Assembly (NCBI RefSeq): GCF_963675165.1
Contig: NC_087389.1
Span: 151,001 to 215,000, forward strand
Direction of reading: 5' to 3'
Length of the DNA: 64,000 nt
Source of the DNA: Halichondria panicea
Lineage: Eukaryota > Porifera > Demospongiae > Suberitida > Halichondriidae
Shown here: positions 4,140 to 55,662 of the stretch, one piece after another
Layout: every line of letters begins with the position of its first letter
Position numbering within the stretch: position 1 is the stretch's first letter
The notes under the pieces: model-generated
Seen by the model: the letters and a program-made list of their open reading frames with translations, nothing else
What the model was told of the DNA's origin: nothing
Databases searched by the model: none
Made by a program: the position numbers and the translations under genes

Positions 4140-4337
4140 CAAGTCTCTCTCACTCTCTCTAGCTCTAGCTCTCTCGATCTCTCTCTTTCTTGCATGTAGA
4201 TCTACTCTGTGTGAAGTCATACAATGCCAATGGGAAGCCCCCTCTTATGTAATGCTATTGGCATGTCTATTTATGCGTACCTTAACCTATTAACTCGAGC
4301 TAGCTCTACGTCTACTATACTAAACAAAGTCTCTAAG
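4140..4337. promoter_or_regulatory. Bidirectional promoter P2 / P1, copy 1
   Basis: This 198-bp gap separates the P2 start (4139, minus) and the P1 start (4338, plus). It holds opposed CCAAT boxes (CCAAT at about 4227 and ATTGG at about 4256) around GGGAAGCCCCC, a weak kappa-B-like match. No clear TATA box is visible. Confidence 0.45.
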
Positions 4338-7136: not shown

Positions 7137-8182
7137 CTAAGAGTTCATCTGTGATTGCATAAAGCACTGGTCACACCAGCCCTTCCCTGGGTTAGCTTGT
7201 TTCACTCGACACTTGGAGCACATCTTGCCACCAGCTGTCGCTGGCATGGACTGAGTAGAAGGGCCCAGGGGCATAGATCCACCAGAATGGGAGATAGGCA
7301 AACTATCATATGGTAGCATCGGAGGGCCTTGTCCTTGCATTTTAGAGTAGTAGCTCATGGCCCCACGTTTATCAGTAGAGGAAGGCCCACTGGAAATAGC
7401 AGATGATCCTGGTGGCTGTCTGTAAGCCCTTGGAGAGCTGCTGCCTTGTTGAGCTGCATGATTAGAATAAGTAGCAAGATTATAAAAAATAAAACCCACA
7501 CCTGTCTTCGTGGCAGCAACCTTCTGTTGGTGAAAGGATGATTGAAGTTCATTGAACTTCTTAGCACATGTCCTGCTACAGAAATCGTGGATCTTGTCAC
7601 CTTCTCTTCGTTTTGGAAAAGTACATCCAGGACATTTACAAGTTCCATAAGTTACTAGCTGAAGAGGTTGTTCATGAGCGTCATATCTTGGTTCGAACCC
7701 GGAGGCGCCCTGGGCCTGGGACATCATCTGACCAGACGTCACGGGTGCACCCGGTTGCTGAGGACGAGGCTTGCGTACTGCGAGTGAAACAAAGAACTAC
7801 GTTAGAAAAACGTAGATAGCTGGTGATAGATTTACATACAGAAATGATATAGAAACACATACGGACATGTCACATACGATGACAACCATAGCTAGCTAGC
7901 TATACGTATATACATACGTTTATCAGCTCCAGCGTGCGTATGAGCAGGGCAGCCACAGTATTCACAGTCAGTGTAGCTGTTTGGATCCTCAGACTGGTAC
8001 TTTTTGCACTCGTCTTTGTCACATTTACTGCAAGCTCCCAGTGCTATGATCCTGACATGCTCTCCTGGTGTATGGTTGCAGTACTCACAACGCAACTGTC
8101 CAGGCTGTGTGGGTGAAGTACGGTACTCTTTACACTCACAAGTGTTGCATTTGCCCCGCTGAACTCCTTGGATGTCCTTCAT
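7137..8182 (-). CDS. Cys-rich adaptor-like protein without catalytic domain, copy 1
   Basis: Three exons (8182-7918, 7777-7502, 7453-7137) give about 285 residues. Exon 1 holds two tandem RG-Cys modules: RGKCNTCECKEY ... CEYCNHTPGEH and GACSKCDKDECKKY ... CEYCGCPAHTH. Exon 2 has a finger of the cluster type (CKCPGC ... HDFCSRTCAKKF). Exon 3 is Pro/Ser/Gly-rich and ends in a CxxC ... CxxC motif (MCSKCRVKQ ... WCDQCF). No PARP, NADAR or PDZ domain is visible. It sits tail-to-tail with P1 and upstream of PARP-S. Sharing modules with the enzymes suggests a common partner or substrate; that is inference. Confidence 0.65.
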
Positions 8183-8700: not shown

Positions 8701-9616
8701 TCATTTTGCAATCTTTTCCACACCATCTAACTCATACACAACAATAAACTGAGGCATAACAGCAGCTACATCAAACACCACTATCTCATCATAGTTCAGA
8801 GAGCCTCCAGCAACACCATGCACTGAATTGTATTCTTCTGGAGGACCAGTGAGAGTCGTGCTGTCTTGACGAATCTCGTACTTTGCACCACACGCCACCA
8901 AACACAGCAACTGAGCACGTACTTTATGGAGCGGATTGCCTTGAGTGTAGTCGTGACATTTTGAAGAATTAGGAGCGAGGTAGATTCCTTTACCAAATCG
9001 CTGAAATCGAGGAATATTGCTACCAATGCGATGGGAATCAAATCCATTGGAAGATATTCCACATATTCCACAGCCTCTGTCTTGACAACAATCATCACGC
9101 TCTAGTAAATTGCACGTTAGTTTAGTTCCATGGAAAAACAGATCGGAGTTTGTAGCCTTCTGGTCGCCTTGCTTGATTCGATCACTGTACTCGTGAAATG
9201 ATTTTGTCAGCTGCTTGTTCTGTACAGCATATATCGCCAATGGCACGGGAGGGGTGGGACATTTGGGAGTGATTTTCACCCATTCTTTCTTGAAGTGCTC
9301 CAATATGTCTTTGTGCGTTTGTTGCTCCGAGTCTAGTCGCTTGAGCATGCTTGACTCTTGAACTACTGCAGGAAAGTAAAGGAAAGTAAAATACTGTAAC
9401 TTCCAAACATTTACCTAACTTAAGCTTCACCGAACACTTACCTGTTCCCTTTCTTTGTGCTTGGTAGCACTCTGTACAGAGCTTGAAAGGATGGTTTCTT
9501 TCCTTCTCCCCACACTCATAACACAGCTTGTGGTCTAGTTTACAGGACCTGCACAGAAAGTCTCCTTGAAGACGAGGATGGGAGTCACATTGAAAGCAGA
9601 GTTTGTCCTCAGCCAT
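8701..9616 (-). CDS. PARP-S: zinc-ribbon plus PARP catalytic domain, copy 1
   Basis: Two exons (9616-9442, 9365-8701) encode about 279 residues. Exon 1 is a compact Cys-rich module starting MAEDKLCFQC with five CxxC-type pairs (CRSC, CYEC, CTEC and others). Exon 2 is nearly all PARP-type domain: FFHGTK (His), GKGIYLAPNSSKCHDY (Tyr), PPEEYNSVHG, then LNYDEIVVFD with the third-position Glu. This complete H-Y-E set predicts an active ADP-ribosyltransferase. A Cys cluster (CCQDRGCGICGI) sits between the His and Tyr motifs. The layout resembles PARP domains I know from basidiomycete fungi more than animal PARP1-16. It shares a 125-bp promoter with NADAR-B. Confidence 0.8.
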
Positions 9617-9741
9617 CTTGTGTGTGTACTATTGTGTGTAGGGGAATTCCCAGGGGAACTCCCGTTACATCCACTGCAAAACACCACACCTCACTGCAAT
9701 GTCTAGCTCTTGCTAAGCTGCAAGCTCAATTAACTTTTGCA
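9617..9741. promoter_or_regulatory. Bidirectional PARP-S / NADAR-B promoter with two kappa-B sites, copy 1
   Basis: GGGGAATTCCC (9641-9651) and GGGGAACTCCC (9653-9663) lie 25-47 bp from the PARP-S start and about 80-100 bp from the NADAR-B start. Both sites and their spacing are retained at 27660-27682 and 54257-54279 while surrounding bases vary. Confidence 0.6.
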
Positions 9742-11015
9742 ATGGCAACAAGATCACTCACTGGTAAGCTGGTTAAACAACTGCCTGCTGCTGCTATTAT
9801 ATTTTTGTTTGCATATTAGCTTGCTGCCTAGGCCTTTTAAAATCATCATGAGCTGAAACCTTGACAACTAGACCATTCACCATCCCTTTTGCCCAGGTAC
9901 AGTATGCAGGTACCCAGGCTGCTTCAAGCCAGGATACAAGGAGCCCAGTGGCTACACACACAACTTCTGTGGACGAACACATGCTGAGATGTACAGGTCA
10001 ATTCCTCTCGCTTCCCCAACCCCCACCACCTCGGCATTCTCATACTCAAGTAAGTTTGCAAAACAATGATTTTCTATTACTTTTACTTGTTGTGTCTTCT
10101 CTTGCAGGACCGGCTAAGTCAGCACAAACAACAAAAAGTGCTCTGAAACCATTGAAGGCACTTCAAAAATATGTATCACCATCGTCAAACGAGATAAAGT
10201 TCTACAACAGTTATGACCCCTTCTACGAGTTTACAAACTTTTATCCAACATTTATGACAATTGATGGAAGTTCTTGGCCTTCTTCTGAACACTACTTTCA
10301 AGCTCAAAAATTTGTCGGTACTCCATATGTAGAGAAAATAAGAAAAATGTCTTCGGCTAGAGAAACGTTCCAGTTTTCGAGGAACCCAGCCGTATCTCGA
10401 TGGCGAAGGTCGGATTGGGACCAAGTGAAAGATGACATCATGCTGAAAGCTCTAAGATGCAAGTTTGGGCAATCAGACAGACTGCGTTCTCTTCTTTTTG
10501 GCACAGGAGACAAGAAACTCATTGAGCACACAGAGAATGATTCTTACTGGGGAGACGGTGGAGGAAAAGGAAAAGGCTTGAACAAACTCGGCGAACTGCT
10601 CATGAAAGTACGAAGAGAGCTCAAAGAAATGGAAAAAATAAAAAGCCCTTTGAAAAGAAGCAACTCATTTTCAATTTCTAGCACAAAATCATCAAAACCG
10701 AAGTACACAGATGATATGAACGCTTTGGGACGCACTTCTCCATTGTTATCTCGTCGCTTGTCAGGATCACAGAACTCTTTACACACACCAAGCAGCACCA
10801 CCTACAGAGTAGGCTACTCCTCTCCTTCACTGGCAAGCAGGCCTAGCGGTTTCACTCCTCGCACACAAACCACAAATGGTTCCGGCTATTTGTATACCAA
10901 ACCAGGCACTGCTAACTACACTCCTAGTCCAAGACAACATACCACTCCTTCTTACAAGCAACGAAGGGGAAATGATTCCACTGGAGTGGCTTCAATTTTT
11001 GCACTTTATAAATGA
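9742..11015 (+). CDS. NADAR-B: one finger plus NADAR domain, copy 1
   Basis: Exons 9742-9763, 9897-10049 and 10108-11015. A 22-nt first exon (MATRSLT) leads into one finger (CRYPGC ... HNFCGRTHAEMY). The NADAR fold follows, from IKFYNSYDPFYEFTNF. Signature blocks are SSEHYFQAQKF (conserved Glu), SRWRRSDW, KALRCKFGQS, and DSYWGDGGGKGKGLNKLGELLMKVRREL. NADAR/YbiA proteins are N-glycosidases acting on riboflavin intermediates or ADP-ribose linkages. The C-terminal ~120 residues are Ser/Thr/Pro-rich, low complexity, and differ between copies. The short first exon is kept in all three copies, which supports the start. Confidence 0.8.
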
Positions 11016-11332: not shown

Positions 11333-14300
11333 GAGGGAGGGGTGTGGTTAATTACGGGGTGGGTGGGGCAATTAGAACTTATTCTGACTTGAGTGTGGAG
11401 GGGTCTTGTGTGTGCTGTCACAATGTATTCATGAAGGATGTACATCACAAACTACAGAGCAGTAGATGATAAACAAGCGTGTTCACACACTGTATATCTA
11501 CCTTACAAAACACCACTTGCTGAGAAATAAGCTCCATTGATCTAAAAGTGGATTCACAAAACATGGTACTAAAATGAATGCACATCACATTAAGTTACCT
11601 GGATACGAAACTGGCACATTGCACTAGCTCCTTGGTACTGGTGAGAGTGTACTTGGTTGCCACCTGTTGCTCCTTCAGATCCTGCCCTGAGGCAACCACC
11701 TTGTGTATCAGCTGTGGTCATCAGTCAAGAATAACAACCACCAATGAATACACTTATAAGAATAGCTGTACACATGATGTAATTAAGGAGTGTTATGAGG
11801 ATATTAATTAAGGCTGTAATGACAGGGGCAGGGGAGCGGGTGATTGTGTTTGAGTGTTACCTACACACAGACATCACCATCTCAGCAATGGCTCCAAGAA
11901 GCTCTACTCTCCTGTAGAAAATAAATTCATATTCCGTTATCATAACACCTACTCTGAAAACGAAAGCAAACATACAACACCGTAGTCACATTACTTACTG
12001 AATATTCAAAGAGTTTACGTCAAGTAGTGAGCACATCTGAAGAGCAGCCATTACTGATTGACTATCAAGACCAACCTACGTGCATATAATTATAATTATA
12101 TACGTTAACAAAATAATCCATGATACCACTTGTACACCTCATCGTCTCTAACGCATACCTGAGTGGGGAGAGAGACTAGAACAGCCACCAGCTGTACCAG
12201 ACCAGTTGCTAGCGGTGCCGAGGCTAAGAGAGCGTGTGCAGCAGACCGGCACAGTACCACAACCTACGAAAACAACACTAAATGTTTGGTGTGGCTAATA
12301 CTCGTTCACCTTGCTGAAGTGCTTCCTGAGTCCTTCTCTGCTAGACTGCTTTAGTTTAGAGTCCAAGATGAGCTTCCAGCTCGCACAGAAGACACACACA
12401 GACACTGGGTCACTGCAATCCTGGACAACAATAATTTATAAAACACATAATAATAATCATAAACAAAAATGTTAATTTAAAATAAAAATTTTTTTAACAC
12501 ACCATTTCAGAAAGTTCTTCCAAAATTTGAGACAGCTCCTCTCGATCCACCATGCACAGAACCACCCTCGTCACCATGGTAACTTTCTCGTACACCATCC
12601 TGAGCACCTGGTCGCTTTTACTGCTGCTATGAGATGCTTGGTCCCTTCTCGTGAGATAGTCTAGTGGATTGAGTCGTGGAGATCGTGCGAGGGATAATCT
12701 AAACAGTAAAGTGAGGGAAGAGTGAAGTCTTGTCCATGCTTTACGAATGTTTGGGACTGTTGGTTCAACATCCTCACACTCAGCAGCTGATTCTTCAGGA
12801 GGAACCGAGAGAGCCGTCAAATATATACAGTCAAGAAGAGCATTGAACTAAATTAAACGGAAAAATCGTCATCACAACATTAGCTCGTAAATTGCGTGTG
12901 CATTAATTATTATACTGACCACATTTAGTTGTTTCTGAAGATCAGGTGATCTCGACTCCAGTACAGTACCTAGGTCCACTGGACACTCTGCAACACGTTC
13001 TAAAGACGCCATGATTGCACTCACCCTACGAATAAAGCATACAGCTTAATAAAAACTTATACCAATTCTAATTACCTTGACGACATAAGCCCAGGCTGAC
13101 ACCGGAGTACAGCTGCCAGTGAGGAAATCAGGAGGGGGTGGTCCGGTAGTAATCTGTCAGGGGTTCCCCCCTCAATCAGCGACACAACAACTTCACAGAT
13201 TTGCTCCAGATTTGGGCGTGGTCTTTTTAAGGAGGGGTCAGTCAGTTGGCAGTGCTGCGGTGCAAACAACATAATATTATTGTGTACTTTATATACTTGT
13301 ACATACAACACTTTAGGACGTTCGCAACCCAAGTTATGGCCTCTCAAAGTTAGCTCTGAAAACAGGCCTGATTTAGAAAAAACACCCACTTATAGCCCAC
13401 GCTTTATTTCCAGAAATGGACAACCAAAATGAAGTACTGATCTAAGCACACCAACACTATACAGATAGTACATGTACAGAGTTGCTATAGTAACCCACCT
13501 TACAAGCAACGACAACAATACAATGAAGCCACCTCTCAGATAGTGGGGAACTCTTAGTCTCAGCCAACTAGAATGAATGGAGGGGGTGCTTGGAAACAAG
13601 AGGTGAGCTGACTCCATTGATATGCTTACCAGGTCTAGTTCTTTGTCAGGGTGACCTCCGACCTTAATTCGTACGTCAATGGCCATTTCCATGGTAATCA
13701 TCTTTGGGTTATCCCTACATAATCATGAACACAGAGTGTAGTTAATAAACACGAATATGTACATGCAGTATGAAGGTTGTGTAGTCCCTTAACACGATCC
13801 ACTAATATTGAAGTTACTGGGGTTTCCTCTAGAGAAAGGGTACACAGATATATACCTACCATCACGCTATCCTGACTCCGGTGAGGGTGTACTCAGAGCC
13901 GAGGTCTACAGCCACCCAGTTGTATGCACCAGCTGCAGGTATCTTCCAGTAGCTGATGGGATCATCTGTGCATGGAGGTAACACACAACTTGATATGAGT
14001 TAATAAAATGAAGGACCCTTTACTATATTACTAGGTAAAGGGTCATCTCATAAACAAACGAAAAACATAGTGACTCAAGGTAAAGGGTCATATTAATAAC
14101 AAACTCATAGTGACTCACTGTCCAACAGGCAGGTGGGTGGGTGCTGCTTGGTCCATGCACTGCAGTAGTCTGGAGTGGGTTGACACCATTCAGCCTTGTT
14201 CTTGAGCAGTGGATATGTGACTGTGCACAACAGAATAGTGCATGGTAGTGACTGTGCACAACAGAATAGTGTATGGTGGTTACTAGGAAGTCTATGATAA

Positions 14301-17974: not shown

Positions 17975-19335
17975 ATGGAACATGTGGAAGCATTTAAGCA
18001 GAAAGTACAGGAGCTAGGAATAATTGTATACTTTAAGTCTCTGATTGCCTCTGATCCAGGAGTATGTGTGCAGTGTCACTCTCCCTGTGACTCTGAATTT
18101 TGCTCTCCACACTGTGAAATGAAGTATTGGGATGAGTTCAACCATCAGTACACCTACCATTCAGGTATAATGACCTGGGACTCCATTTGGTGCAGTACTA
18201 GTCTATTTATCTATTTAATCTACTTGCAGGGAAGACTCCACTGTGCAAATTTCCCAGATGTTTCAAGACTTGCTATGTTGAGAATCACGGTCGTGTTCAT
18301 GACTATTGCAGCAAATCTCATGCTGGAGAGCACCAAAAGATGAAAGAAGTAGCTCAAAGACAGCAACACACTTCCAGAAACCAGAGGGGCAAGGGTAACT
18401 TGTGGAGAGGGGGCCATCAACTAGGAGGCAGAGGTGGAGGTGGAGCAGGGACATCTCAAGCTGGGCGATGTCAGCAAGGTATGTAGCTACTTAATTGTTT
18501 TAATTTTTAAGTCACTTTTTCTGCTCCATATATAGGGCATACTCGAGGAGGTACCAACTATTCTCACTGCTCGGATAGTCATGGAACAATCTATTTCTAC
18601 AATCGTGGCGAACCATACTACGAGTTTACTAACTTCTACAATGGTGCTGCATTCAGTCTCGATGACAGTGAATGGCCTACTACTGAGCACTATTTCCAAG
18701 CCCAGAAATTCGTTGGTACACCTTACGTTCGCAAGATTCGGAATGCCTTTGGGCCGCGAGATGCTTTCGAATTGTCCCGCAATCCAGCTATCTCTCGTTG
18801 GAGGAGGAGCGATTGGGAAGTTGTCAAGATGGATGTGATGAGAAAGGCTCTTTTCGCTAAGTTTACTTCACACACATTTTTGAAAAATAAGCTTCTTGAT
18901 ACTGGTAAAAGAGAGCTTGTTGAACGATCTCCACATGATAGCTACTGGGGAGACGGTGGTGATGGTACAGGAGAGAACCATCTTGGAAGACTTCTCATGG
19001 AACTGAGGGCAAAGCTGCAAGGTGGTCAGTACAAGGATGTGGAACGAGATGGTATGCAAGCAGGAACGAGTTGTGGCGTTCCATCATATAACAAATTGAC
19101 GAGGAATCCATTACGTGACAACACACAATGTAAAGTAGAAGATGAAGTTGAAGACATGGATTATGAGAATACTGGGTTTCCAACTGGGTCACTGGTGTTA
19201 CTAGATGATTCGAATGAAAACGCATCTGACTATCCACCGCTTCCAACGCATTTCAATGGGAAACCATTAATACCCTCCCCATCACCTACGCCCCCTACTG
19301 GTACTGGTGCTGATGCTGATGCCGTTGGCACTTGA
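17975..19335 (+). CDS. NADAR-A: two Cys modules plus NADAR domain, first full copy
   Basis: Exons 17975-18164, 18230-18478 and 18536-19335. The N-terminus MEHVEAFKQKVQELG leads to CVQCHSPCDSEFCSPHC. The second exon has a cluster finger (CKFPRCFKTCYV ... HDYCSKSHAGEH) and a Gly/Gln-rich stretch. The NADAR domain begins YFYNRGEPYYEFTNFY and includes TTEHYFQAQKFVGTPYV, SRWRRSDW, LLDTGKRELVERS and DSYWGDGGDGTGENHLG. The catalytic-type Glu in the TEHYF block is present. The acidic/Pro-rich tail ends ADADAVGT. It is head-to-head with the ankyrin gene and followed by the PDZ gene in the same direction. It is about half identical to NADAR-B over the NADAR fold, so the two are older paralogues. Confidence 0.8.
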
Positions 19336-21133: not shown

Positions 21134-23330
21134 TCATTTGAATGTAATAACAAAACGTGGTAAATCATGAGCAGGGTTCTTCATCACTACAATGTCCCCA
21201 TGTGTTGTATGATGAGTTCCATTCTGTCCTAATAACAGTTCGTTCAGTAGCAGCTTCTTCCCACCCTTGCAGTAGGAAAGAGGGGTGTTGGGAGATGTTG
21301 CGAAGTACTCCCCAGCACCATAGGCTTGGCCATTTCTCTTCTTTTGGTCATAGCCAGTAGTACAAATGCTGTCGATATTACTCTCTGCCGTTCCATGAAA
21401 TGCAAGGCAAGTGTTTCTTTGGCTAGTGGGTAGAGACATCATTGCGCTCCTAAATTTATTGAATAAAGCACCTCCAGGCTTAGCGTGGTCGTTTTCTTTC
21501 ATTGAGGCAACTTTGAGATTCGGGAATTTCTGGAGAAACTTTTGAACTTCTGGCATACTTGTAAGAGTCCTCGCTGCAAATTGAGTAGTAAAACAAAATT
21601 GTTAAGCCAGCTTAATTTATATACCATCTCTGTTGGGGGCGTCCTTCTGTGCATGGTCTAGACAACAGTAGTCATGGACTGTCCCTCCCTCTGTTTTCCT
21701 TCTGTTAGTGCATCCAGGTAGGCCACACTGATCTTCAACCTTATCAGCTGTAGCTGCAGGCACAGGCATCACAAGTCATAACTATTCTACATGCATGTAT
21801 TATCAAGTATTCTAAAACAGCAGGAGTAACTTCTTGGTAAGAGTATACTAGGGACTTTCCCAGGGGAATTTTTCAGTGATTTTATCAAACCACACATAGT
21901 AGCCAAATAGTGGCCAGATAGCTGACAGGGACTCTCCCAGGGGAATTAAGTGTTAGAACCAATAAACAGGTGACCCAACAGTTAAAACCAATCCTAAAAT
22001 AAAGGTGACACAACAGTCCACTCTTCACATACCGTAAATGCCTCTCCTCTTTCCCTCATCAGCATGGCTCTTCCCACAGTAGTCATAGGTGGCCCCAGTA
22101 CTGCTGTCCACAAACTTGGGCTTCTGACAACCAGGGATGATGCACGATGAGCTGTCCTTGGGCCCAGCTTGAGATGCAGTGGTAGTTCCAGCAACTGGTG
22201 GAGGAGCTGTGAAAAACTGTAATCAAGGCTATAAAAATGCAATGAAAATTTACTTACCCACAAGCCCTTGTTGCAATCCAAGATTAGCATGTTTTCTCCC
22301 ACAATAGTTCTCAAAAGGCCACGTATGTTTATTACAGCCAGGTAGTAGACAGTGTGTAACTCCTTTCACCACTTGCTGGTTCACCTCTGCATGCAGGTAC
22401 ATACACAATGTGAAACGTACAAGATGTTAGCTTACGTTGCCACAGAGCCTGTCTCCTCTGGTGCTCCATGGCATGAGTGATACCACAGCACTCATGCACC
22501 GTACCACTCTCATCAACATAGCATGCCTTTAGGCACTCAGCAATAGCACATGTGGCCCTTGATGTGGGTACAACAGGAGCCTGTACTGGAGTTGGTAGTG
22601 CTGCACCATCTTGGATATTCGCTGTAATAAGCATTAGCAAAACTACTAGATAGAGTTGAAGCTTACGTAATATTCCTCTCATCTTCCCCTCTTGGGCATG
22701 CGTCTTCCCACAGTAGTCATGGAGAACTCCAGTGCCACTGTCCATATACTTAGGCTGGAAACACTCGGGGATAATGCACAGGGAATTGTCCTGTGCGCCT
22801 TGTGGCACGGAGAACATACTTGAATCTATAGAGGGAGAAATAAATGGAATGGGTGAGTTTATAATTATAGGCGTATACTCACCTTGATAAAAGTTCTCTT
22901 CATATTGATTTCCATGCCCAAATTGATTATCTTCAAACATTCCCATACTTGCAGTCATCATATGAAAATGACAGTGTATGCTTTCCATGCCCGAATTCAA
23001 ATCAAAGTCAACGGTCTGATTACAGTTGGGGAAGCCACACAATGATGATATTGGGAACGACTGAAAGTTCAGAGAAGATGCAGAAATTGGAAGAGCTACA
23101 TGACTCTGATCCATAGAAGTGTCTCGGGTAGAAGTGTCTCCAGTAGAAGTGTCTCGGATAGAAGTGTCTCCTTGCTGTGATTGCATGGACTGGTCCAGCC
23201 TAGAGTGTCCTGCAGGACGACAGCCACATTGGGAGCACTTCCAATTGAGACCACTGCTAGGGGGAGTGTAGCCTCCACAGCTAGAGCAATTCTTGCACCT
23301 TCCTCTGGAGATTCCACGGGCATCATCCAT
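21134..23330 (-). CDS. P2: six Cys/His fingers plus PARP-like domain, copy 2
   Basis: Same seven-exon plan as copy 1, starting MDDARG at 23330. Between the RG-Cys module and the first finger, the RDTST-type repeat is slightly expanded (RDTSTGDTSTRDTS). The PARP-like exon is intact: FHGT, GAGEYFATSP and GDIVVMKNPAHDLPRF, again with Asp where most PARPs have Glu. One finger has CLKAC for CPNAC. It shares a promoter with P1 copy 2. Confidence 0.75.
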
Positions 23331-23567
23331 CAAGTCTCTCTCTAGCTCTAGCTCTCTCGATCTCTCTCTTTCTTGCATGTATATGTAGATCTACTCTGTG
23401 TGAAGTCATGTCATACAATGCCAATGGGAAGCCCCCTCTTATGTAATGCATGCTATTAATTTTATTGGCATGTCTATTTATAGTCTCTAACCGTACCTTA
23501 ACCTATTAACTCGATCAACTTTAGCTATCTAGCTCCTACGTCTACTATACTAAACAAAGTCTCTAAG
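23331..23567. promoter_or_regulatory. Bidirectional P2 / P1 promoter, copy 2
   Basis: This 237-bp gap keeps CCAATGGGAAGCCCCC and a downstream ATTGG (inverted CCAAT), as in copy 1. CT-rich microrepeats flank the P2 start. Confidence 0.4.
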
Positions 23568-25397
23568 ATGAGCTCCATCACTGATTCCAGAGGTGTGCAG
23601 AGAGGCGGTTGCAATTGCCCTCAATGTGACTGTGGCCAGTATGATGGAGGAACTGAAGGAAGGAAATGCAATTACTGTGGTCACCCTCCTGGAAAGCATG
23701 TGAACATGATCACAGGCATTGCTTCTTTGGCACTAACAACTACTTCGTTCTTACCATCTAGCTCTTTCCATTCTACTATGGTTATGGATGATACCAAGTT
23801 CCCTAGTACCCAGAGTCAACCTTGTTTTGATCTCAACACGGGCGTAGATGTACAAGATGAGTACTGTCCACAACCTACTGACCACTCTGCACCCGATCAA
23901 TCGACTATGTCGATGTCACCTCAAGGAGCTGTGCAACCACCACCGAGTCAATTTGATATTATGTCTTCCATATTACGAAGTCCCTTCAAGTGGCCACGAC
24001 CAACTACTGCTCCCCCACCAGCATTACGTTCACCTGCACCTCGGCTAGCCCTAGCCCGTATGTTATTCTAATAATTTTATATAAAATAATGATTAAATTA
24101 TATTCTTATGCTTACAGTTCCACTTGACCAGCAGTGTAAGCTCAGTGGATGCTCAAGGAGGAGATACACTGAACCAGGTGGTCGTGTACATGACTGTTGT
24201 GGGAGAACACATGCGACAGAGTATGCCAAACAAAATTGTAAAGTTCTCATGCTGTAACAGTACTTGTCATACTCTTTAGACATACTTCTATAGGTCAAAT
24301 TACATCCGAGTTGCAATGCAAGACTCCTGGATGCTACAAACAGAGGTACCCAAATGGCCAAGGAGGACATTTTGATTACTGTGCCAAATATTGTCGTGAC
24401 AGTGGAGGCAAACCACAAGGGTCAATGCTTGCTTCAGGTAAGAGCTACTAAATGTGTACATGTTATAATACTATAAATTTATAGCTTCAATGCCGGACAT
24501 GGCTCTGACAGGCGGATATGGTATCTGTCAGTTCCCTCAGTGTGCAAGACCCAAGTACTGTGATCCTGCCAATGGGAGGGTGCATGACTTCTGTAGGAGA
24601 TCCCATGCTTACCAAGCCAGAGTGCAAGGTACTTATTGCTGTGATGTAGACTTATTATTATGTAGCTCTGGGTATTTCCCAGGTGATTCCCCAAGTGATT
24701 CTCCAAAATGATAGTGGCCATTGTTATTAATGTGTCATGCTTTTGTTATTCATACTTCTCAGGAATCACCACTAGCACTGCTGTGAATATCAGAGTAGCC
24801 ACTGCACAAGAGCTCTCCACAATTGCAGGGAAGTTCAAGCAGTCATGGGCTAGTGCAAAGGGGGCCTGTCCACCAGTTTCATTTGTCTACATCATCAGTA
24901 ACTCACAACTCACACAAAGATGGACCACATACAGAAATGGGTTACAGAAGAAGGATGTTGAAGAGTACTACCATGGTACTAAACTGACATGCAACATTAC
25001 AGCGACTTCAACTCTGTGCAACGATCAACATTGTGGTGCATGTGGTATCTCAAACACTGGACTGGATCGAAGATGCATTCAAAAGAACATCAAGTTTCAG
25101 AGGTTTGGTCATGGCTTTTACCTCGCTCCTAATTCATCAAAATGCCATGACTACACCCAAGGATGCTCCTCGTATAGAGCTATGCTGTTGTTTGATGTTT
25201 GTCCCGGAAATAAATCCAACCTCAAGAAAGACGATGCAAAATTAAAAGCACCACCTCAAGGATTTGATTCTGTTTATGGACGGAAAGGAGTCCGCTTGAA
25301 CTATGAAGAAATAGTAGTGTACAACGCTGATGCTGCCCTTCCAAAATGTATTATTGTGTACCAAAAAGACGGTGTAGGGAAAATAGCAACAGGATAG
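23568..25397 (+). CDS. P1: RG-Cys module, fingers and PARP domain, copy 2 (intact)
   Basis: Five exons: 23568-24057, 24118-24237, 24294-24437, 24485-24628 and 24763-25397. Order of parts: RGGCNCPQCDC ... CNYCGHPPGKH; a Ser/Thr/Pro-rich linker; then three fingers, one per phase-1 exon (CKLSGC ... HDCCGRTHA, CKTPGC ... FDYCAKYCRD, CQFPQC ... HDFCRRSHA). The PARP-type domain carries YYHGTK, FGHGFYLAPNSSKCHDY, PPQGFDSVYG and LNYEEIVVYNADAALP. The H-Y-E triad is complete, so ADP-ribosyltransferase activity is predicted. A Cys cluster (CNDQHCGACGI) sits between His and Tyr, as in PARP-S. This is the best reference for the damaged copy 1. Confidence 0.8.
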
Positions 25398-25509: not shown

Positions 25510-26461
25510 CTAAGAGTTCATTAGTGACTGCATAAAGCACTGGTCACACCAGCCCTTCCCTGGGTTAGCTTGTCTCACTCGACACTTGGAGCACATCTTG
25601 CCACCAGCTATCGCTGGCATGGACTGAGTAGAAGGGCCCGGGGGCATAGATCCACCAGAATGGGAGAGAGGCAAACTATCATATGGTAGCATCGGAGGGC
25701 CTTGTCCTTGCATTTTAGGGTAGTAGCTCATGGCCCCACGTTTATCAGTAGAGGAAGGCCCACTGGAGATAGCAAATGATCCTGGTGGCTGTCTGTAAGC
25801 CCTCGGAGAGCTGCTGCCTTGTTGAGCTGCATGGTTAGAATAAGTAGCAAGATTATAAAAAATAAAACCCACACCTGTCTTCGTGGCAGCAACCTTCTGT
25901 TGGTGAAAGGATGATTGAAGTTCATTGAACTTCTTAGCACATGTCCTGCTACAGAAATCGTGGATCTTGTCACCTTCTCTTCGTTTTGGAAAAGTACATC
26001 CAGGACATTTACAAGTTCCATAAGTTACTAGCTGAAGAGGTTGTTCATGAGCATCATATCTTGGTTGGAACCCGGAGGCGCCCTGGGCCTGGGACATCAT
26101 CTGACCAGACGTCACGGGTGCACCCGGTTGCTGAGGACGAGGCTTGCGTACTGCGAGTGAAACAAAGAACTACGTTAGAAAAACGTAGATAGCTGGTGAT
26201 AGATTTACATACAGAAATGATATAGAAACACAGTATTCAGTCAGTGTAGCTGTTTGGATCCTCAGACTGGTACTTGTCGCACTCGTCTTTGCCACATTTA
26301 CTGCAAGCTCCCAGTGCTATGATCCTGACATGCTCTACTGGTGTATGATTGCAGTACTCACAATGCAACGGTCCAGGCAGTGTGGCCGCGGGTGAAGTAC
26401 GGTACTCTTCACACTCACAAGTGTTGCATTTGCCTCGCTGAACACCTTGGATGTCCTTCAT
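25510..26461 (-). pseudogene. Cys-rich adaptor, copy 2, exon 1 truncated
   Basis: Exons 2 and 3 match copy 1. In exon 1 about 105 bp are gone: the end of the second RG-Cys module and the splice donor. The frame now stops right after SYTD near 26237. Without a donor the rest of the protein cannot be joined normally. A downstream start (MTSGQMM at about 26115) might still make a shorter protein. Confidence 0.65.
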
Positions 26462-26763: not shown

Positions 26764-27635
26764 TCATTTTGCAATCTTTTCCACACCATCTAACTCATAC
26801 ACAACAATAAACTGAGGCATAACAGCAGCTACATCAAACACCACTATCTCATCATAGTTCAGAGAGCCTCCAGCAACACCATGCACTGAATTGTATTCTT
26901 CTGGAGGACCAGTGAGAGTCGTGCTGTCTTGATGAATCTCGTACTTTGCACCACACGCCACCAAACACAGCAACTGAGTACGTACTTTATGGAGCGGATT
27001 GCCTTGAGTGTAGTCGTGACATTTTGAAGAATTAGGAGCGAGGTAGATTCCTTTACCAAATCGCTGAAATCGAGGAATATTGCTACCAATACGATGGGAA
27101 TCAAATCCATTGGAAGATATTCCACATATTCCACAGTTTGTGTCTTGACAACAATCATCACGCTCTAGTAAATTGCACGTTAGTTTAGTTCCAGATCGGA
27201 GTTTGTAGCCTTCTGGTCGCCTTGCTTGATTCGATCACTGTACTCGTGAAATGATTTTGTCAGCTGCTTGTTCTGTACAGCATATATCGCCAATGGCACG
27301 GGAGGGGTGGGACATTTGGGAGTGATTTTCACCCATTCTTTCTTGAAGTGCTCCAATATGTCTTTGTGCGTTTGTTGCTCTGAGTCTAGTCGCTTGAGCA
27401 TGCTTGACTCTTGAACTACCGCAGAAGATTAGTAAAATACCGTAACTTCCAAACACTTACCTGTTCCCTTTCTTTGTGCTTGGTAGCACTCTGTACAGAG
27501 CTTGAAAGGATGGTTTCTTTCCTTCTCCCCACACTCATAACACAGCTTGTGGTCTAGTTTACAGGACCTGCACAGAAAGTCTCCTTGAAGGCGAGGATGG
27601 GAGTCACATTGAAAGCACAGTTTGTCCTCAGCCAT
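26764..27635 (-). pseudogene. PARP-S, copy 2, catalytic His lost
   Basis: Exon 1 (27635-27461) is intact. Exon 2 has a 10-bp deletion at 27192/27193 compared with 9130 in copy 1 and 53745 in copy 3. It removes the codons for the FFHG motif and shifts the frame to a stop. The acceptor of exon 2 also reads GCGG where the other copies read GCAG, although a TAG three bases on could serve. Downstream PARP sequence is otherwise conserved, so the loss is recent. Confidence 0.85.
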
Positions 27636-27771: not shown

Positions 27772-30700
27772 ATGGCAACAAGATCACTCACTGGTAAGCT
27801 GGTTAAACAATAGCCTCGGTCCCAGGCCGATTTTTTTTTAATAGAACGAAGTTGAAAAATACGGCCTGGTATTGATTGTATCTGGGCATGGCAGGAACCG
27901 GTGTCATAGGATAGAACCTCCGGGCGACAGTTTCTCCCCCGGAGCCTGCGGTCTTAGGACAATGCCTCCCCCCCCGGTGGTTTTGTCCTAGGACAGAATC
28001 CCCGCCCCCAGGATATATCATCCGGGTACATGTACCCTGTCAAAACCTGTCAAGGCTATAGTATAAGCGTATGTGCGAGTGCATGAGAAATGTATAGACT
28101 GTTAGCAATCAGAATGCCTACTCAACAAGAGTATGAGGACATACTGCTGTACAAGACTGCTGCCAGCAATGCTGGCCAGAAGAAATACAGAGACGGGCTT
28201 TCCACTAATGACAAGAGAAGTATAAGAGACAAAGTTCAAAGATATGCTCTGCAGCAACAATGCTTATACCTGCCTGAGAAGGACAGCACTGGCATGCATA
28301 GAATGAGAAGAGTTGTGGTGAAGCAAGAGGAGAAAAGCAGGATACTAAACATGTGCCACGATGGACTGGATGGAATGCATTTTGGGAGAGACAAGACCTA
28401 TGGAAAGGTATATTTATCATCATATCTTATAAAGTATAATTATATCTGTTTCATGCATGTAGGTTGCTCAGGATTTCTACTGGAAAGGCCTACATGCTGA
28501 CGTCATACAGCTCTGCAAGCACTGCGACAAATGCCAACGAACGAATCACCAACTGCAGAAGCCCAGAGCAGAACTACATCCCATCCCTGTGACAAAGGTC
28601 TGGTACAGAGTTGGTATTGACTTAGTAGGACCTCTACCTGAAACAAGCTCTGGAAACAAGTACATTATCACGCTCTCAGACTATTTCTAAGTGGCCTGAG
28701 GCTGCCCCACTCCCATCAAAATCAGCAGAAGGTGTAGCAAAATTTCTGTTTGACACATTTTGCAGGCATGGGTGGCCAAAAGTGATTCAATCAGACCAAG
28801 GAAGAGAGTTTGTCAACGAAATCAACACCCGACTTTTTCAGTTGACTGACATACAGCACTGCGTATCAAGTGCTTACCACCCACAAACAAATGGCCTTGA
28901 TGAACGCTTCAACCAGACTCTAGTGAATACTCTCAAGAAGGTAATCGATTCTAGTACTGATGACTGGGATCAGCATCTCTCTGCTGCTCTTTATGCCTAT
29001 CGCATATCAAAACAGGTAAAATTTTAATTATTATATCATGCATGCTTTTATTTTTTGATTGTAGGCGTCATCAAAGTACACACCCTTTTTCTTAATGTTC
29101 AATCGCCACCCGCGGAAAGCTGTTACTTTTGATATAGATCAACGAGATGGTGCCGACGCTATAGAAGATAGAGGAGATGCTGACCAATTGAGTGGAGAGG
29201 AGACAGAAAATGAAGAAGACGGAGAAGACATGGATGGAATTCTCCGAAGGTTGATGGAAATTCGTGATCGCTGTCACCTCAATGCCAAGGAGAACATTGC
29301 TGCTGCACAGCAAAAACAGAAGCAGCAGTATGACAACAAGCATAACTCTTTGAAGGTATTATTTTATATAGCAAACTTTAGCTTAATTTTTGCCATTTTT
29401 GTCGTAGAGTTATCCAGTTGGCAGCAGTGTCATGCTAAAGAATATGGCCAATTCTCATCGAATGGGAGGGAGAGTGGACTGCACCTGGAAAGGTCCATAT
29501 AACGCTTTCCCCAAGTACTGAGCTCCAGATAGCACAAGTGTATAGCCCATTAATTCAATGCAATGGGCTGTTGATTTCTGTGGTGGCTCTCCAGCAGCAA
29601 GAGGGTGCTAACAACTGCGGACTATTTAGCATTGCTGCTGCAATCACGCTGCTATGAACGATAATGTGGATTCTCTAGTGTTTGATGAGGCCAAAATGAG
29701 AGCACATCTCATTAAGTGCTTTGAGAAGGGCAAACTCTCACGGTTCCCTCGCACAAAGAAAGCGATGCCCAAAAGACCAACACCACAAACCATTGCCATT
29801 ACAATAATTATACTGCATGTGCAAGAGACCGGACTCTTTTGAGGATATGGTCATGTGTGACAAATTTAGTGAGTAGTATCACTATCGCTGTGCCAAAATT
29901 CGCAATGAACCAGTAGGTAATTGGTTTTGTTCTGGTTGTATCACTTTATGATTTGTGCACTTTTGGTTATATTTATTGTACTTCTTTCTCTTGCATTGTT
30001 GTATTTATTGAGTATTGAGATCTATAACATAATAGATACAGCATCTATTGCATCTAGTCTATGGCTGTTTACTTCGTATATAGCCTAGACTAGTCTCTTC
30101 TCAGATTACCTGTGGACTGACTTTCACCTGCACCGCAGAATGGGGGAGCTCTGGTCCTGGGGTAGGAGCTTTTGTCCTAGGACAGAAACTCCGGGGGGAG
30201 GAAATATCCTAAGGACGGAACCCCCCCCGGAGCTACTGTCCTGGGGGAGGCCGTGTCCTGTGACACCGGAAACAAAAGCAGTGATTCTTTACATTTTGTT
30301 TCCTGCTTTTTTTCTGTAATACTAAAGGTGTACGTAGAGGCATTTTACTCCCGTAAAAGTTACAGTAATTTAGCTCCGTGTCATGTTCTCAATTTATAGC
30401 TAGCTAGCTATGGCATGCAACTCGTTGTCTTGTTTGAAGCAAGATGGCCTCACTCTCATGGCAGAACAGGCCCAGGCTCTCAAGCTCCTGTTTGAGGGAA
30501 GGGACGTGTTTATCTGGTTCCCAACGGGGTATGGCAAGTCTCTCTGCTATATCAGTTGCTACCCTTTTTAATGGACTACAAGCTAGGTAGGACCAAGGCT
30601 CCTCCTGTTGACAAAAGTGTTCTTCTTGTTAATTGTCTCTCCCCTTGTATCTCTCATCATGAGACTCATGATTGACCAGATCAGAAGTCTAAACAATAGA

Positions 30701-32281
30701 GGTGTTTCTGCTGCCATCCTCAGTAGCAATAAAGGAATCGACAAAGATTTGGTTGCCACTGCCAAAGAAGTGTCTTTTGGGAAGTATTTCCTGCTGTATA
30801 CTGCCCCAGAGGCTGTTGTTGAAGACCACTGTTGGAGATTAATTTTTTGTTGTACCACCAGTCAATTTGTTTTATGTTTTATGTATTAAAAAAACCACGC
30901 CCAGATCACGCCCAAATACAATCAATACCAGGCCTAGTAGGCGACCTAGCGTTCAATTGGAGACCGATCGGCCGGGGGTCGAGGCTAGTTAAACAACTGC
31001 CTGCTGCTGCTATTATGTTTTGTTTGCATATTAGCTTGCTGCCTAGGCCTTTTTATATAAAATCATCATGAGCTGAAACCTTGACAACTAGACCATTCAC
31101 CATGCATCCCTTTTGCCCAGGTACAGTATGCAGGTACCCAGGCTGCTCCAAGCCAGGATACAAGGAGCCCAGTGGCTACACACACAACTTCTGTGGACGA
31201 ACACATGCTGAGATGTACAGGTCAATTTCTCTCACTTCCCCCACCTCGGCATTCTCATACTCAAGTAAGTTTGCAAAACAATGATTTTCTATTACTTTTA
31301 CTTATTGTGTCTTCTCTTGCAGGACCGGCTAAGTCAGCACAAACAACAAAAAGTGCTCTGAAGCCATTGAAGGCATTTCAAAAATATGTGTCACCGTCGT
31401 CAAACGAGATAAAGTTCTACAATAGTTATGACCCCTTCTACGAGTTTACAAACTTTTATCCAACATTTATGACAATTAATGGAAGTTCTTGGCCTTCTTC
31501 TGAACACTACTTTCAAGCTCAGAAATTTGTCGGTACTCCATATGTAGAGAAAATAAGAAAAATGTCTTCGGCTAGAGAAACGTTCCAGTTTTCGAGGAAC
31601 CCAGCTGTATCTCGATGGCGAAGGTCGGATTGGGACCAAGTGAAAGATAACATCATGCTGAAAGCTCTGAGATGCAAGTTTGGGCAATCAGACAGACTGC
31701 GTTCTCTTCTTCTTGGCACAGGAGACAAGAAACTCATTGAGCACACAGAGAATGATTCCTACTGGGGAGACGGTGGAGGGAAAGGAAAAGGCTTGAACAA
31801 ACTCGGCGAACTGCTCATGAAAGTACGAAGAGAGCTCAAAGAAATGTACAAGACAAAAAGTGGCAGCCCTCTGAAGAAAAGAAGCAGCTCGTTTTCATTT
31901 AATAGTACAACATCAAAACCTAAGTACATTGATGATATGGATATCTCTCTGAGCTCTTCAGGGCACAATCCTCTATTATTATCTCGTCACTTGTCTGGAT
32001 CACTAAGCTCTTTGCACACACCAAGCAGCACCCCCAAAGTAAGATGCTCATCTCCTTCACTGGCACGCAGTCCTCTCGGTTTCACTCCTCGCACACAACC
32101 CACAAATGATACAAGCTATTTGTATACAAAACACAGCACTGCTACCTACACTCCTACTCCATCACAATGGAAAACAACTTCTCAATCTACTGTGACAAAG
32201 CGACCTAAGGGAAATGATTCCAGTCAAGTGGCTTTTCTCTTTACTTCTTCACATAAACATACTAAACATTTTAGAGTTTGA
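27772..32281 (+). CDS. NADAR-B, copy 2, with a 3.2-kb transposon in intron 1
   Basis: Exons 27772-27793, 31121-31264 and 31323-32281. The reading frame across exons is intact: MATRSLT, finger CRYPGCSKPGY ... HNFCGRTHAEMY, then NADAR with SSEHYFQAQKF, SRWRRSDW and DSYWGDGGGKGKGLNKLG. Intron 1 is enlarged from about 130 bp to 3.3 kb by the nested transposons at 27811-30987. The C-terminal tail is the most divergent of the three copies and ends KHFRV. Whether the long intron is still spliced is unknown. Confidence 0.7.
28090..29500 (+). pseudogene. Ginger-type integrase-like transposase, frameshifted
   Basis: Exons are visible from 28090 to about 28407, 28462-29013, 29066-29355 and from 29408. 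An H2C2 zinc-binding segment (H ... CKHCDKC) precedes an rve-type DDE core: VGIDLVGPL (first Asp), VIQSDQGREF (second Asp) and YHPQTNGLDERFNQ (Glu). Between the first and second Asp, at about 28688, two bases are missing in the DYFSKWPEA block, giving an immediate stop. The element is therefore not autonomous as it stands. Confidence 0.75.
29575..29842 (+). pseudogene. Ulp1/C48-type protease remnant in the Ginger-like element
   Basis: The frame around 29580-29800 contains QQQEGANNCGLFSIAAA, the Gln and Cys segment of Ulp1-like proteases, followed by MRAHLIKCFEKGKLSRFP. The upstream His/Asp part is only partly visible and a frame change occurs near 29650. Ulp1-like proteases are known passengers of Ginger transposons. 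Confidence 0.55.
30411..30889 (+). pseudogene. RecQ-like helicase N-terminal fragment
   Basis: The frame from 30411 shows DVFIWFPTGYGKSLCY (Walker A, motif I). After a frame change come VSPLVSLI, DQIRSLNNRGVSAAILSSN and YTAPEAVVE, the order seen in RecQ motifs Ia-II. It stops before the DEAH box. It lies between the Ginger-like element and the right end of the outer element, so it probably belongs to the outer one. Confidence 0.65.
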
Positions 32282-44789: not shown

Positions 44790-45640
44790 GGGTAGTAGCC
44801 AGGTAGTTCAGTTGGTATAGTCGAGTAGCTATATAGTTGGGTAGTGGAGTAGCTATATACCTATAGGTAGTTGGGTAGTGAAGTAGTCGAGTAGTTATAG
44901 GTATAGTGAAGTAGTTGGGTAGTGCAGTAGCTAGGTAGTTGGGTAGTGAAGTAGTTGGGTAGTGAAGTAGTCAAGTAGTTGGGTAGTGCAGTAGTTGGGT
45001 AGTGCAGTAGCTAGGTAGTTGGGTAGTGCAGTAGCTGGGTAGTGAAGTAGTTGGGTAGTCAAGTAGTTGGGTAGTCAAGTAGTTGGGTAGTCAAGTATAG
45101 TTGGGTAGTGAAGTAGTGAAGTAGTTGGGTAGTGAAGTAGTGAAGTAGTTGGGTAGTCAAGTAGTTGGGTAGTTGGGTAGTGCAGTAGCTGGGTAGTGAA
45201 GTAGTTGGGTAGTTGGGTAGTGAAGTATAGTCAAGTAGTTGGGTAGTGCAGTAGCTAGGTAGTTGGGTATATATATAGTGAAGTAGTTGGGTAGTGAAGT
45301 AGTCGAGTAGTGAAGTAGTTGGGTAGTGAAGTAGTTGGGTAGTGAAGTAGTGAAGTAGTTAGGTATAGTGAAGTAGTTGGGTAGTCAAGTAGTGAAGTAG
45401 TTGGGTAGTGAAGTAGTGAAGTAGTTGGGTAGTGCAGTAGCTATAGGTATAGGTTGGGTATAGTGAAGTAGTTGGGTATAGTGAAGTAGTTGGGTAGTGA
45501 AGTAGTGAAGTAGTTGGGTAGCGAAGTAGTTGGGTAGTGAAGTAGTGAAGTATAGCTGGGTAGTGAAGTAGTGAAGTAGCTGGGTAGTGAAGTAGTTAGG
45601 TAGTGAAGTAGCTAGGTAGTGAAGTAGTCGAGTAGTGAAG
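44790..45640. repeat. ~850-bp TAGTTGGGTAGTGAAG minisatellite
   Basis: Dozens of degenerate units mixing GTAGTTGGGTA, GTGAAGTA, GTCAAGTA and GTGCAGTAGC. The strand is strongly G/T/A-biased with almost no C. The hierarchical ordering of 8-bp subunits suggests slippage. Confidence 0.9.
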
Positions 45641-45890
45641 TAATTGTACGGGAGCTCTGTGCTGCACTTAGTGACAAACAGATCTCAATCACTGTGCAAG
45701 ACTTTCAGAAGAGAATTGCCAACTTCCCTTTGAACACTGTCAATCCCCAATGGTTCCTAAACAAAACAACTGACAGGACCACGATTCCATCTAGCTAGCA
45801 TCCATATATGCATGCTAAGCAAAAGAAGTGCTCACAGATCTACCAGTCCAGCTTTGACGAGTCTTTTCTCGAAAAGTTGGAAGCAGGTGT
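45641..45890 (+). pseudogene. Possible exons upstream of the PHD-finger gene
   Basis: An open stretch reads RELCAALSDKQISITVQDF, then NTVNPQWFLNKTTDR. A second short open segment near 45820-45885 reads SQIYQSSFDESFLEKLEAG. They look protein-like and precede the PHD gene in the same direction, but I recognise no domain. Confidence 0.3.
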
Positions 45891-53316: not shown

Positions 53317-54232
53317 TCATTTTGCAATCTTTTCCACACCATCTAACTCATACACAACAATAAACTGAGGCATAACAGCAGCTACATCAAACACCACTAT
53401 CTCATCATAGTTCAGAGAGCCTCCAGCAACACCATGCACTGAATTGTATTCTTCTGGAGGACCAGTGAGAGTCGTGCTGTCTTGACGAATCTCGTACTTT
53501 GCACCACATGCCACCAAACACAGCAACTGAGCACGTACTTTATGGAGCGGATTGCCTTGAGTGTAGTCGTGACATTTTGAAGAATTAGGAGCGAGGTAGA
53601 TTCCTTTACCAAATCGCTGAAATCGAGGAATATTGCTACCAATTCGATGGGAATCAAATCCATTGGAAGATATTCCACATATTCCACAGTTTGTGTCTTG
53701 ACAACAATCATCACGCTCTAGTAAATTGCACGTTAGTTTAGTTCCATGGAAAAACAGATCGGAGTTTGTAGCCTTCTGGTCGCCTTGCTTGATTCGATCG
53801 CTGTACTCGTGAAATGATTTTGTCAGCTGCTTGTTCTGTACAGCATATATCACCAATGGCACGGGAGGGGTAGGACATTTGGGAGTGATTTTCACCCATT
53901 CTTTCTTGAAGTGCTTCAATATATCTTTGTGCGTTTGTTGCTCTGAGTCTAGTCGCTTGAGCATGCTTGACTCTTGAACTACTGCAGAAGATTAAAGGAA
54001 AGTAAAATACCGTAACTTCCAAACATTTACCTAACTTAAGCTTAACCGAACACTTACCTGTTCCCTTTCTTTGTGCTTGGTAGCACTCTGTACAGAGCTT
54101 GAAAGGATGGTTTCTTTCCTTCTCCCCACACTCATAACACAGCTTGTGGTCTAGTTTACAGGACCTGCACAGAAAGTCTCCTTGAAGGCGAGGATGGAAG
54201 TCACATTGAAAGCAGAGTTTGTCCTCAGCCAT
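53317..54232 (-). CDS. PARP-S, copy 3 (intact)
   Basis: Exons 54232-54058 and 53981-53317. The protein is almost the same as copy 1. The zinc-ribbon N-terminus MAEDKLCFQC, FFHGTK, GKGIYLAPNSSK and LNYDEIVVFD are all kept, with CCQDTNCGICGI between His and Tyr. Predicted active by motif. It is head-to-head with NADAR-B copy 3. Confidence 0.8.
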
Positions 54233-54356: not shown

Positions 54357-55662
54357 ATGGCAACAAGATCACTCACTGGTAAGCTGGTTAAACAACTGCC
54401 TGCTGCTGCTATTATGTCTTTGTTTGCATAATTATTAGCTGCATGCCTAGGCCTTTCTATATATAAAATTATCATGAGCTGAAACCTTGACAACTAGACC
54501 ATTCACCATCCCTTTTGCCCAGGTACAGTATGCAGGTACCCAGGCTGCTCCAAGCCAGGATACAAGGAGCCCAGTGGCTACACACACAACTTCTGTGGAC
54601 GAACACATGCTGAGATGTACAGGTCAATTCCTCTCACTTCCCCCACCCCAACCACCTCGGCATTCTCATACTCAAGTAAGTTTGCAAAACAATGAATTTC
54701 TATTACTTTTACTTATTGTGTCTTCTCTTGCAGGACCGGCTAAGTCAGCACAAACAACAAAAAGTGCTCTGAAACCATTGAAGGCACTTCAAAAATATGT
54801 ATCACCGTCATCAAACGAGATAAAGTTCTACAATAGTTATGACCCCTTCTACGAGTTTACAAACTTTTATCCAACATTTATGACAATTGATAGAAGTTCT
54901 TGGCCTTCTTCTGAACACTACTTTCAAGCTCAAAAATTTGTCGGTACTCCATATGTAGAGAAAATAAGGAAAATGTCTTCAGCTAGAGAAACGTTCCAGT
55001 TTTCGAGGAACCCAGCTGTATCTCAATGGCGAAGGTCAGATTGGGACCAAGTGAAAGATGACATCATGCTGAAAGCTCTAAGATGTAAGTTTGGGCAATC
55101 AGACAGACTGCGTTCTCTTCTTCTTGGCACAGGAGACAAGAAACTCATTGAGCACACAGAGAATGATTCTTACTGGGGAGACGGTGGAGGGAAAGGAAAA
55201 GGCTTGAACAAACTCGGCGAACTGCTCATGAAAGTACGACGAGAGCTCAAAGAAATGGAGAAAACAAAAAGCCCTTTGAAAAGAAGCAACTCATTTTCAA
55301 TTTCTAGCACAAAATCATCGAAACCGAAGTACACAGATGATATGAACACTTTGGGACGCACTTCTCCGTTCTCATTATCTCGTCGCTTGTCAGGATCACA
55401 GAACTCTTTACACACACCAAGCAGCACCCACAGAGTAGACTACACACCAAGCAGCACCCACAGAGTAAGATTCTTATCTCCTTCACTGGTACACAGGCCC
55501 CCCCTCAGCGCCACTTCTCGCACACAACCCAACAAACAAGGCACTACTAGTCCAAGACAACAGACCACTCCTTCTAACAGAACTCAATCTACCACAAGGC
55601 GACACGTGGGAAATGATTCCAGTCAAGTGGCTTCTGCTCTTACACACATATATAGATATTAG
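54357..55662 (+). CDS. NADAR-B, copy 3
   Basis: Exons 54357-54378, 54523-54675 and 54734-55662. It has the MATRSLT leader, finger CRYPGCSKPGY ... HNFCGRTHA, and a NADAR fold with SSEHYFQAQKF, DSYWGDGGGKGKGLNKLG and LLMKVRREL. One change in a conserved block: SQWRRSDW for SRWRRSDW. The tail carries a local duplication of the TPSSTHRV segment. Intron 1 is short and free of insertions. Confidence 0.8.

Follow-up and report, generated by a model that had tools for sequence, protein, structure and literature searches.

A head-to-head PARP-NADAR gene pair with NF-kB-consensus sites in the sponge Halichondria panicea, a candidate inducible ADP-ribose-signalling module

What might an animal use a locus for in which the gene of an ADP-ribosyltransferase and that of a NADAR hydrolase start back to back across a short shared gap? 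Such a pair, here called PARP-S and NADAR-B, lies at positions 8701-11015 of the window, i.e. the whole 64-kb stretch of DNA analysed, which is part of a 6.57-Mb contig (C13) in the 131-Mb assembly of the demosponge Halichondria panicea. The data establish how the locus is built, that its catalytic residues are intact and selection on it is purifying, that the linkage recurs, and that NF-kB-consensus sites lie near most of the starts placed. With a probability of roughly 0.5, we take the pair to belong to a demosponge ADP-ribose-signalling module that would be NF-kB-inducible and serve innate immunity or the stress response.

PARP-S copy 1 consists of two exons on the minus strand and NADAR-B copy 1 of three exons on the plus strand, arranged head to head as follows:

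8701..9365, minus strand: PARP-S copy 1, exon 2, ADP-ribosyltransferase domain with H-Y-E triad
9366-9441, minus strand: PARP-S copy 1, intron
9442..9616, minus strand: PARP-S copy 1, exon 1, four CxxC pairs, ATG at 9616
9617..9741: gap between the two start codons, 125 bp
9641..9663: tandem pair of NF-kB-consensus sites, the same in each of the three copies
9742..9763, plus strand: NADAR-B copy 1, exon 1, MATRSLT, ATG at 9742
9897 (or 9903)..10049, plus strand: NADAR-B copy 1, exon 2, zinc finger
10108..11015, plus strand: NADAR-B copy 1, exon 3, NADAR domain followed by a low-confidence tail

A preceding sequence-only reading had proposed that PARP-S, with intact H-Y-E motifs, and NADAR-B diverge from a 125-bp gap, and the exon models bear this out (9617-9741). 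The version of NADAR-B copy 1 with exon 2 from 9903 equals isoform X2 of RefSeq LOC135346160. A TTG at 9861 was considered as the start of NADAR-B and rejected; the frame of that open reading frame (ORF) misreads the finger exon. The same reading had described the arrangement as repeated three times. The layout recurs, with gaps of 125, 136 and 124 bp; however, PARP-S copy 2 is dead, and the three copies are not independent because the unit that contains them was tandemly duplicated.

The 279-residue PARP-S copy 1 matches PF00644 (E 4.6e-14, 52.8 bits against a cut-off of 26.7). Its H-Y-E triad aligns to the tankyrase region and is invariant across 60 aligned sequences. Resemblance to tankyrase was found by profile and by fold, the 50 fold matches listed being tankyrases. 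Judged by these comparisons, PARP-S is a tankyrase-like member of the PARP/ARTD family. At E <=1, its Pfam matches include PARP and not DarT, and DarT is likewise absent from the fold matches listed. While the fold and the H-Y-E region are common to PARP-S and the tankyrase catalytic domain, PARP-S has no ankyrin or SAM part according to Pfam and carries an extra Cys cluster, invariant at C79, C88, C93 and C96 of the model, at a site that presumably differs from the tankyrase zinc site. A pattern search recovered the four-CxxC domain from 15 PARP-S-class proteins, out of 84 in all and out of 22 with enough sequence ahead of the domain. Relatives outside sponges were not confirmed in either prokaryote species genomes (121 pattern stretches) or IMG/VR contigs (18).

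NADAR-B copy 1 matches PF08719 (E 9e-37). The YbiA-type pocket residues E, K, E, D and W are kept in all six NADAR copies of the cluster, which comprise NADAR-B and a second gene, NADAR-A, and each of the six has the Glu of the YbiA type, not the Asp of DarT1 partners. By its profile and pocket, NADAR-B is a YbiA-type member of the NADAR superfamily; entry 8bau is likewise a YbiA-subfamily NADAR. With Escherichia coli YbiA and the Phytophthora nicotianae NADAR, the latter of which cleaves guanine-linked ADP-ribose, the sponge proteins share fold and ADP-ribose-contacting residues. They differ by an added N-terminal finger and, in NADAR-B, by a fast-evolving tail (about 10640-11015 and its copies) that evolves nearly freely (dN/dS 0.78-0.90), whereas the adjoining domain is strongly constrained. 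One candidate PADLOC model matches the NADARs (E 1.3e-10 and 3.3e-8); the anti-phage NADAR family model was discarded, its scores of 66.3 and 71.9 bits lying far below the cut-off of 240.

The finger, of the form C-x4-C...C-x3-H-A, is common to NADAR-A, NADAR-B, the finger exons of PARP-L (a further PARP gene of the cluster), a PARP from Ephydatia and a NADAR from Geodia. By pattern it occurs in 12 of 124 NADAR-class proteins, many of which are database reading frames possibly ending at introns. PARP-S carries the four-CxxC domain, not this finger. The common finger may direct writers and erasers to a shared location.

In the 125-bp gap, the NF-kB consensus GGGRNWYYCC is matched twice in tandem. 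The 23-bp tandem element and the 24 bp on its PARP side are identical in the three copies, with 31 of the 113 other aligned columns varying. No further exact match of this element was found in the genome, where one place has one mismatch and two have two. Over both strands, the window holds 53 matches to the consensus (28 places once merged), compared with 3.7 expected by composition shuffles and 6.9 at the genome rate (14,221 per 131 Mb), which corresponds to a density of about 7.7 times the genome rate; flanking 10-kb stretches on the same contig hold 3, 1 and 0 sites. For 15 of the 17 placed start codons a site lies at most 150 bp upstream, compared with 1.6% expected at the genome rate, and both starts of the PARP-S/NADAR-B pair have such sites in all three copies. 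Two starts lack a near site: that of PARP-S' copy 3 has none up to 400 bp, and that of ribbon-finger gene copy 1 has one at 375 bp, both genes being part of the cluster described below. With copies pooled, the placed starts represent four different promoters, every one of which has a near site in two or more copies. Density and position were relied on rather than site pairs, because a genome-wide search for site pairs gave mostly repeated elements. The palindromic repeat GGGAAATTCCCNGGGAATTTCC, which looks like paired NF-kB sites, recurs genome-wide (e.g., G000:C1:96867 and C1:392849), and GGGATATCCC is frequent among the genome matches listed, its window sites at 181 and 19491 being near no placed start. 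The genome has a Rel-homology locus on contig C6, and one report describes increased expression of NF-kB-pathway genes in two sponges after exposure to microbial small molecules (PMC13042239).

Linkage in other genomes was assessed from 120 of 152 PARP-S-family matches and 120 of 503 NADAR matches, each match being represented by its longest contig, contigs being paired between the two lists by exactly equal size in bp and orientation being covered in H. panicea only. Among PARP contigs of at least 10 kb, 18 of 58 distinct sizes recur among the NADAR contigs listed, whereas jittered sizes give 0.008. Two smaller shared sizes (1489 and 3681 bp) were excluded from the count, since 0.58 coincidences are expected below 10 kb. 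For contigs of 10-300 kb, nine of 27 were shared, compared with 0.18-0.36 expected if NADARs were scattered. One of the 18 is a 25-Mb record of Ephydatia muelleri, a sponge of a different order from Halichondria, in which the PARP and NADAR gene numbers are close (2404 and 2406; locus EMCRGX_G002404-G002406). We infer that the remaining 17 are sponge contigs too, since the NADAR lists name only sponges where a species is given. The PARPs on the shared contigs are closest to PARP-S in 14 cases and to PARP-S' in four, Ephydatia's included, and the NADARs there include A-type as well as B-type proteins. Random gene order in related species had been named beforehand as a result that would speak against a functional pair; the data favour linkage in one named sponge and on 17 further contigs, at the level of contig sharing rather than orientation.

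Self-comparison of the window revealed one unit present three times, with breaks and insertions. The unit comprises NADAR-A, a finger-rich stretch with PARP-L, PARP-S', a ribbon-finger gene, PARP-S and NADAR-B; an additional finger ORF is found per unit (about 0.7-1.7, 19.9-20.9 and 36.8-37.7 kb). Besides the first pair, the following features were placed:

26764..27635, minus strand: PARP-S copy 2, pseudogene, catalytic His lost and acceptor changed
27772..32281, plus strand: NADAR-B copy 2, LOC135346159 in RefSeq
53317..54232, minus strand: PARP-S copy 3, open frame, H-Y-E present
54357..55662, plus strand: NADAR-B copy 3, open frame, pocket residues present
G000:C13:150285-150713: NADAR-A copy 1, just left of the window
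17975..19335, plus strand: NADAR-A copy 2, with finger exons, a NADAR domain and an NF-kB-like site 80 bp before the ATG
34604..36185, plus strand: NADAR-A copy 3, NF-kB-like site 87 bp upstream of the ATG
21134..23330, minus strand: finger exons and PARP-L copy 2, putatively joined into one gene
1956-4139 and 38073-40192 (frameshifted): other PARP-L copies
23568..25397, plus strand: PARP-S' copy 2, a ribbon exon putatively joined to a PARP-domain exon
4338-6080 (truncated ahead of the Glu motif) and 48550-50251: other PARP-S' copies
25510..26461, minus strand: ribbon-finger gene copy 2, lacking any recognised enzyme domain
7137-8182 and about 50.3-51.4 kb: other ribbon-finger gene copies

In PARP-S copy 2, a 10-bp deletion removes the catalytic His, and the splice acceptor is altered. 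Intron 1 of NADAR-B copy 2 is about 3.3 kb long (27793-31126) and carries a retroelement integrase (rve) at 28629-29027. In PARP-L, Asp replaces Glu as judged by eye. Three of nine PARP copies are damaged (PARP-S copy 2, PARP-S' copy 1, which is cut before the Glu motif, and the frameshifted PARP-L copy 3), compared with none of six NADAR copies; the one-sided p of about 0.18, calculated by hand, is not significant, and a skew of damage to the PARP copies is suggestive only.

Genome-wide there are ten NADAR matches. Six belong to the cluster, counting NADAR-A copy 1 beyond the left edge of the window; the other four, on contig C4, are of exon size and adjoin ORFs resembling, by eye, glycogen-debranching enzyme. 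C4 has none of the 67 PARP-family matches, and the PARP-S protein itself has seven matches at E <=0.1, all inside the cluster. This concentration of NADAR and PARP-S matches exceeds what chance would give. A separate group of PARP-domain matches lies at G000:C15:692-770 kb. Within the window, the finger/PARP-L and PARP-S' starts form a second head-to-head pair, about 200-240 bp apart (4139-4338 and 23330-23568) with an NF-kB-like site between them; in the third unit they (40192 and 48550) are about 8.4 kb apart. A long ORF at 14273-14905 appears, by eye, to be a spurious product of a short tandem repeat, and 44665-45684 is a low-complexity array with repeats in 8-bp register and strong GC skew (0.356 in 44001-46000).

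In the inducible module that we favour, NF-kB dimers would occupy the two tandem sites between the start codons and thereby drive PARP-S and NADAR-B together. PARP-S would then add ADP-ribose to a target picked by its N-terminal CxxC domain, and NADAR-B would take ADP-ribose off base-linked (N-glycosidic) products, a removal that could limit self-damage or terminate the signal. NF-kB binding, co-expression, catalytic activity, a common substrate and an immune role are predicted properties. The pairing of writer and eraser, as proposed from the sequence alone, draws support from contig sharing elsewhere, on the common short promoter with NF-kB-like sites and on the one finger type carried by NADARs and PARP-side genes; that NADAR-B erases PARP-S's own mark is something we infer with uncertainty. 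Since tankyrases are known for protein targets and NADARs for guanine-linked ADP-ribose, such direct chemistry is less sure than the NF-kB-inducible module as such. A more specific form, in which the sponge would use NF-kB-inducible, reversible base ADP-ribosylation as antiviral or antibacterial immunity, with zinc-tagged PARPs writing and finger-tagged NADARs erasing on self, appears rather unlikely, if conceivable. The odds given here and below overlap, a toxin-antitoxin case being part of the favoured reading, and need not sum to one.

Several observations weigh against the NF-kB-inducible module. The consensus pattern is common genome-wide (14,221 matches, compared with 6,210 for a reversed control), its count in the window is inflated because of the triplication, and the 1.6% expected near starts is a whole-genome rate, not a promoter rate. 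The starts were placed by hand, with those of NADAR-B taken from RefSeq, and the 17 leave out the gene at 19.9 kb, with its copies, for which no start was found. The 10-kb NADAR stretch on C4 also has 4 sites, another stretch of C4 having 2. Among contigs of 300 kb-5 Mb, only eight of 30 are shared, where 1.9-3.5 would be expected; contig identity means equal size in bp, and the 17 of 18 contigs beyond Ephydatia may include near-duplicates. Two other named sponges, Geodia and Amphimedon, have NADAR contigs (29,974 and 195,374 bp, respectively) that do not recur in the PARP contigs listed, and no PARP-NADAR fusion was present among the best 120 of 490 matches to a joined query. NADAR-B copy 2 is intact although the neighbouring PARP-S is dead. 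Finally, PARP-S and NADAR-B may differ in substrate, since NADARs are inactive on phosphate-end marks, and bacterial ones on PARP10-made uracil marks, according to two studies (PMC11833690; PMC13036486).

The substrate question leads to the rival that survives best, although we regard it as tentative. PARP-S and the NADARs might be two arms of one immune programme with separate substrates, PARP-S marking proteins or viral components and the NADARs shielding the cell from base-ADP-ribosylating toxins or soluble ADP-ribose products of microbes, so that the linkage would mean co-regulation, not writer-eraser chemistry. The tankyrase-like fold, the inactivity of NADARs on the two kinds of marks just mentioned and the non-significant skew of damage to PARP copies agree with this, as does a role in guarding against foreign transferases suggested in PMC11125620. 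However, the shared head-to-head gap and the recurrent linkage point to something more specific than a general clustering of immune genes, and Pfam analysis of 20 proteins from the window (two spliced ones and 18 of 115 ORFs) yielded PARP, NADAR, ankyrin, PHD and integrase domains and no immune effector of another kind.

Plain tandem duplication, with the linkage due to slow decay of gene order in sponges and the NF-kB-like sites due to local composition, is unlikely. All window copies do stem from one set of tandem duplications, the NF-kB pattern is frequent in the genome and partly lies within repeats, and the linkage counts cover PARP and NADAR contigs only. Yet sites occur at about 7.7 times the genome rate and concentrate at the placed starts, far above the composition shuffles, and the close gene numbers in Ephydatia come from another order.

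Quite doubtful is a eukaryotic toxin-antitoxin-like pair, in which a toxic PARP-S would mark guanines of DNA or RNA and NADAR-B would be the antitoxin, as in DarT1-NADAR and YarT-YbiA. It was the bacterial DarT/NADAR module that the sequence-only reading saw mirrored here, and this holds as an analogy only: in both, a transferase adjoins a NADAR hydrolase, and the two NADARs have the key pocket Glu and Lys in common. DarTG1, however, combines a different transferase (DarT), a nucleic-acid toxin, with a BC4488-type NADAR with Asp in an operon, whereas the sponge pair consists of a tankyrase-like transferase and a YbiA-type NADAR encoded by divergent, intron-containing animal genes; because neither an operon nor an Asp-type NADAR was found, membership in DarTG1 is not claimed. 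Closer in one respect is the myxobacterial YarT-YbiA pair, in which a YbiA-type NADAR is the antitoxin to the H-Y-E transferase beside it (PMC11125620). YarT itself is an operon-encoded toxin of minimal, Tre23-like build; PARP-S is larger, tankyrase-like, equipped with a CxxC domain and transcribed from a divergent promoter. The same enzyme classes are tightly linked, and the single broken pair (copy 2) lost its PARP and kept its NADAR; against this, PARP-S is not a minimal base-modifying transferase, and divergent genes in an animal chromosome have no evident addiction logic.

Very unlikely, finally, is an incidental PARP neighbourhood of metabolic riboflavin-damage N-glycosidases: NADAR-B and NADAR-A exceed the cut-off of the riboflavin N-glycosidase model TIGR02464 (124.9 and 124.6 against 73.7 bits) and one Amphimedon relative bears a riboflavin-enzyme name, but the PARP linkage recurs, and a riboflavin-synthesis role is disfavoured because the two enzymes of that pathway looked for (PF00925 and PF00926) were not found in a six-frame search of the genome (which could miss intron-split exons), though 10 of 14 and 14 of 14 prokaryote control genomes were positive.

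Among vertebrate loci, PARP9-DTX3L and PARP14 are comparable in that their ADP-ribosylation genes have a cytokine-responsive bidirectional promoter, going by the title of Juszczynski 2006. The interferon-inducible PARP9 and PARP14 genes encode macrodomains, whereas the sponge cluster has NADARs instead, and NF-kB-like rather than interferon-related sites. No macro domain was found on C13; the 25 genome matches lie on C1, C2, C8, C15 and C16. No animal PARP-NADAR locus appeared in titles and abstracts among the matches listed, in a literature coverage that leaves out most subscription papers and bioRxiv. In print, NADARs are described as partners of bacterial transferases, and their roles across eukaryotes, animals included, as unclear (PMC11125620). 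Being recurrent and probably under an immune switch, the PARP-NADAR locus offers a concrete animal system with named genes and a partner enzyme, and thus a lead on NADAR function in animals, as at least one other sponge keeps PARP and NADAR close. It would show an ADP-ribosylation cluster using NADARs where vertebrates use macrodomains and, if the base-ADP-ribosylation reading is true, would be an animal counterpart of the bacterial transferase-NADAR modules and give animal NADAR a physiological role.
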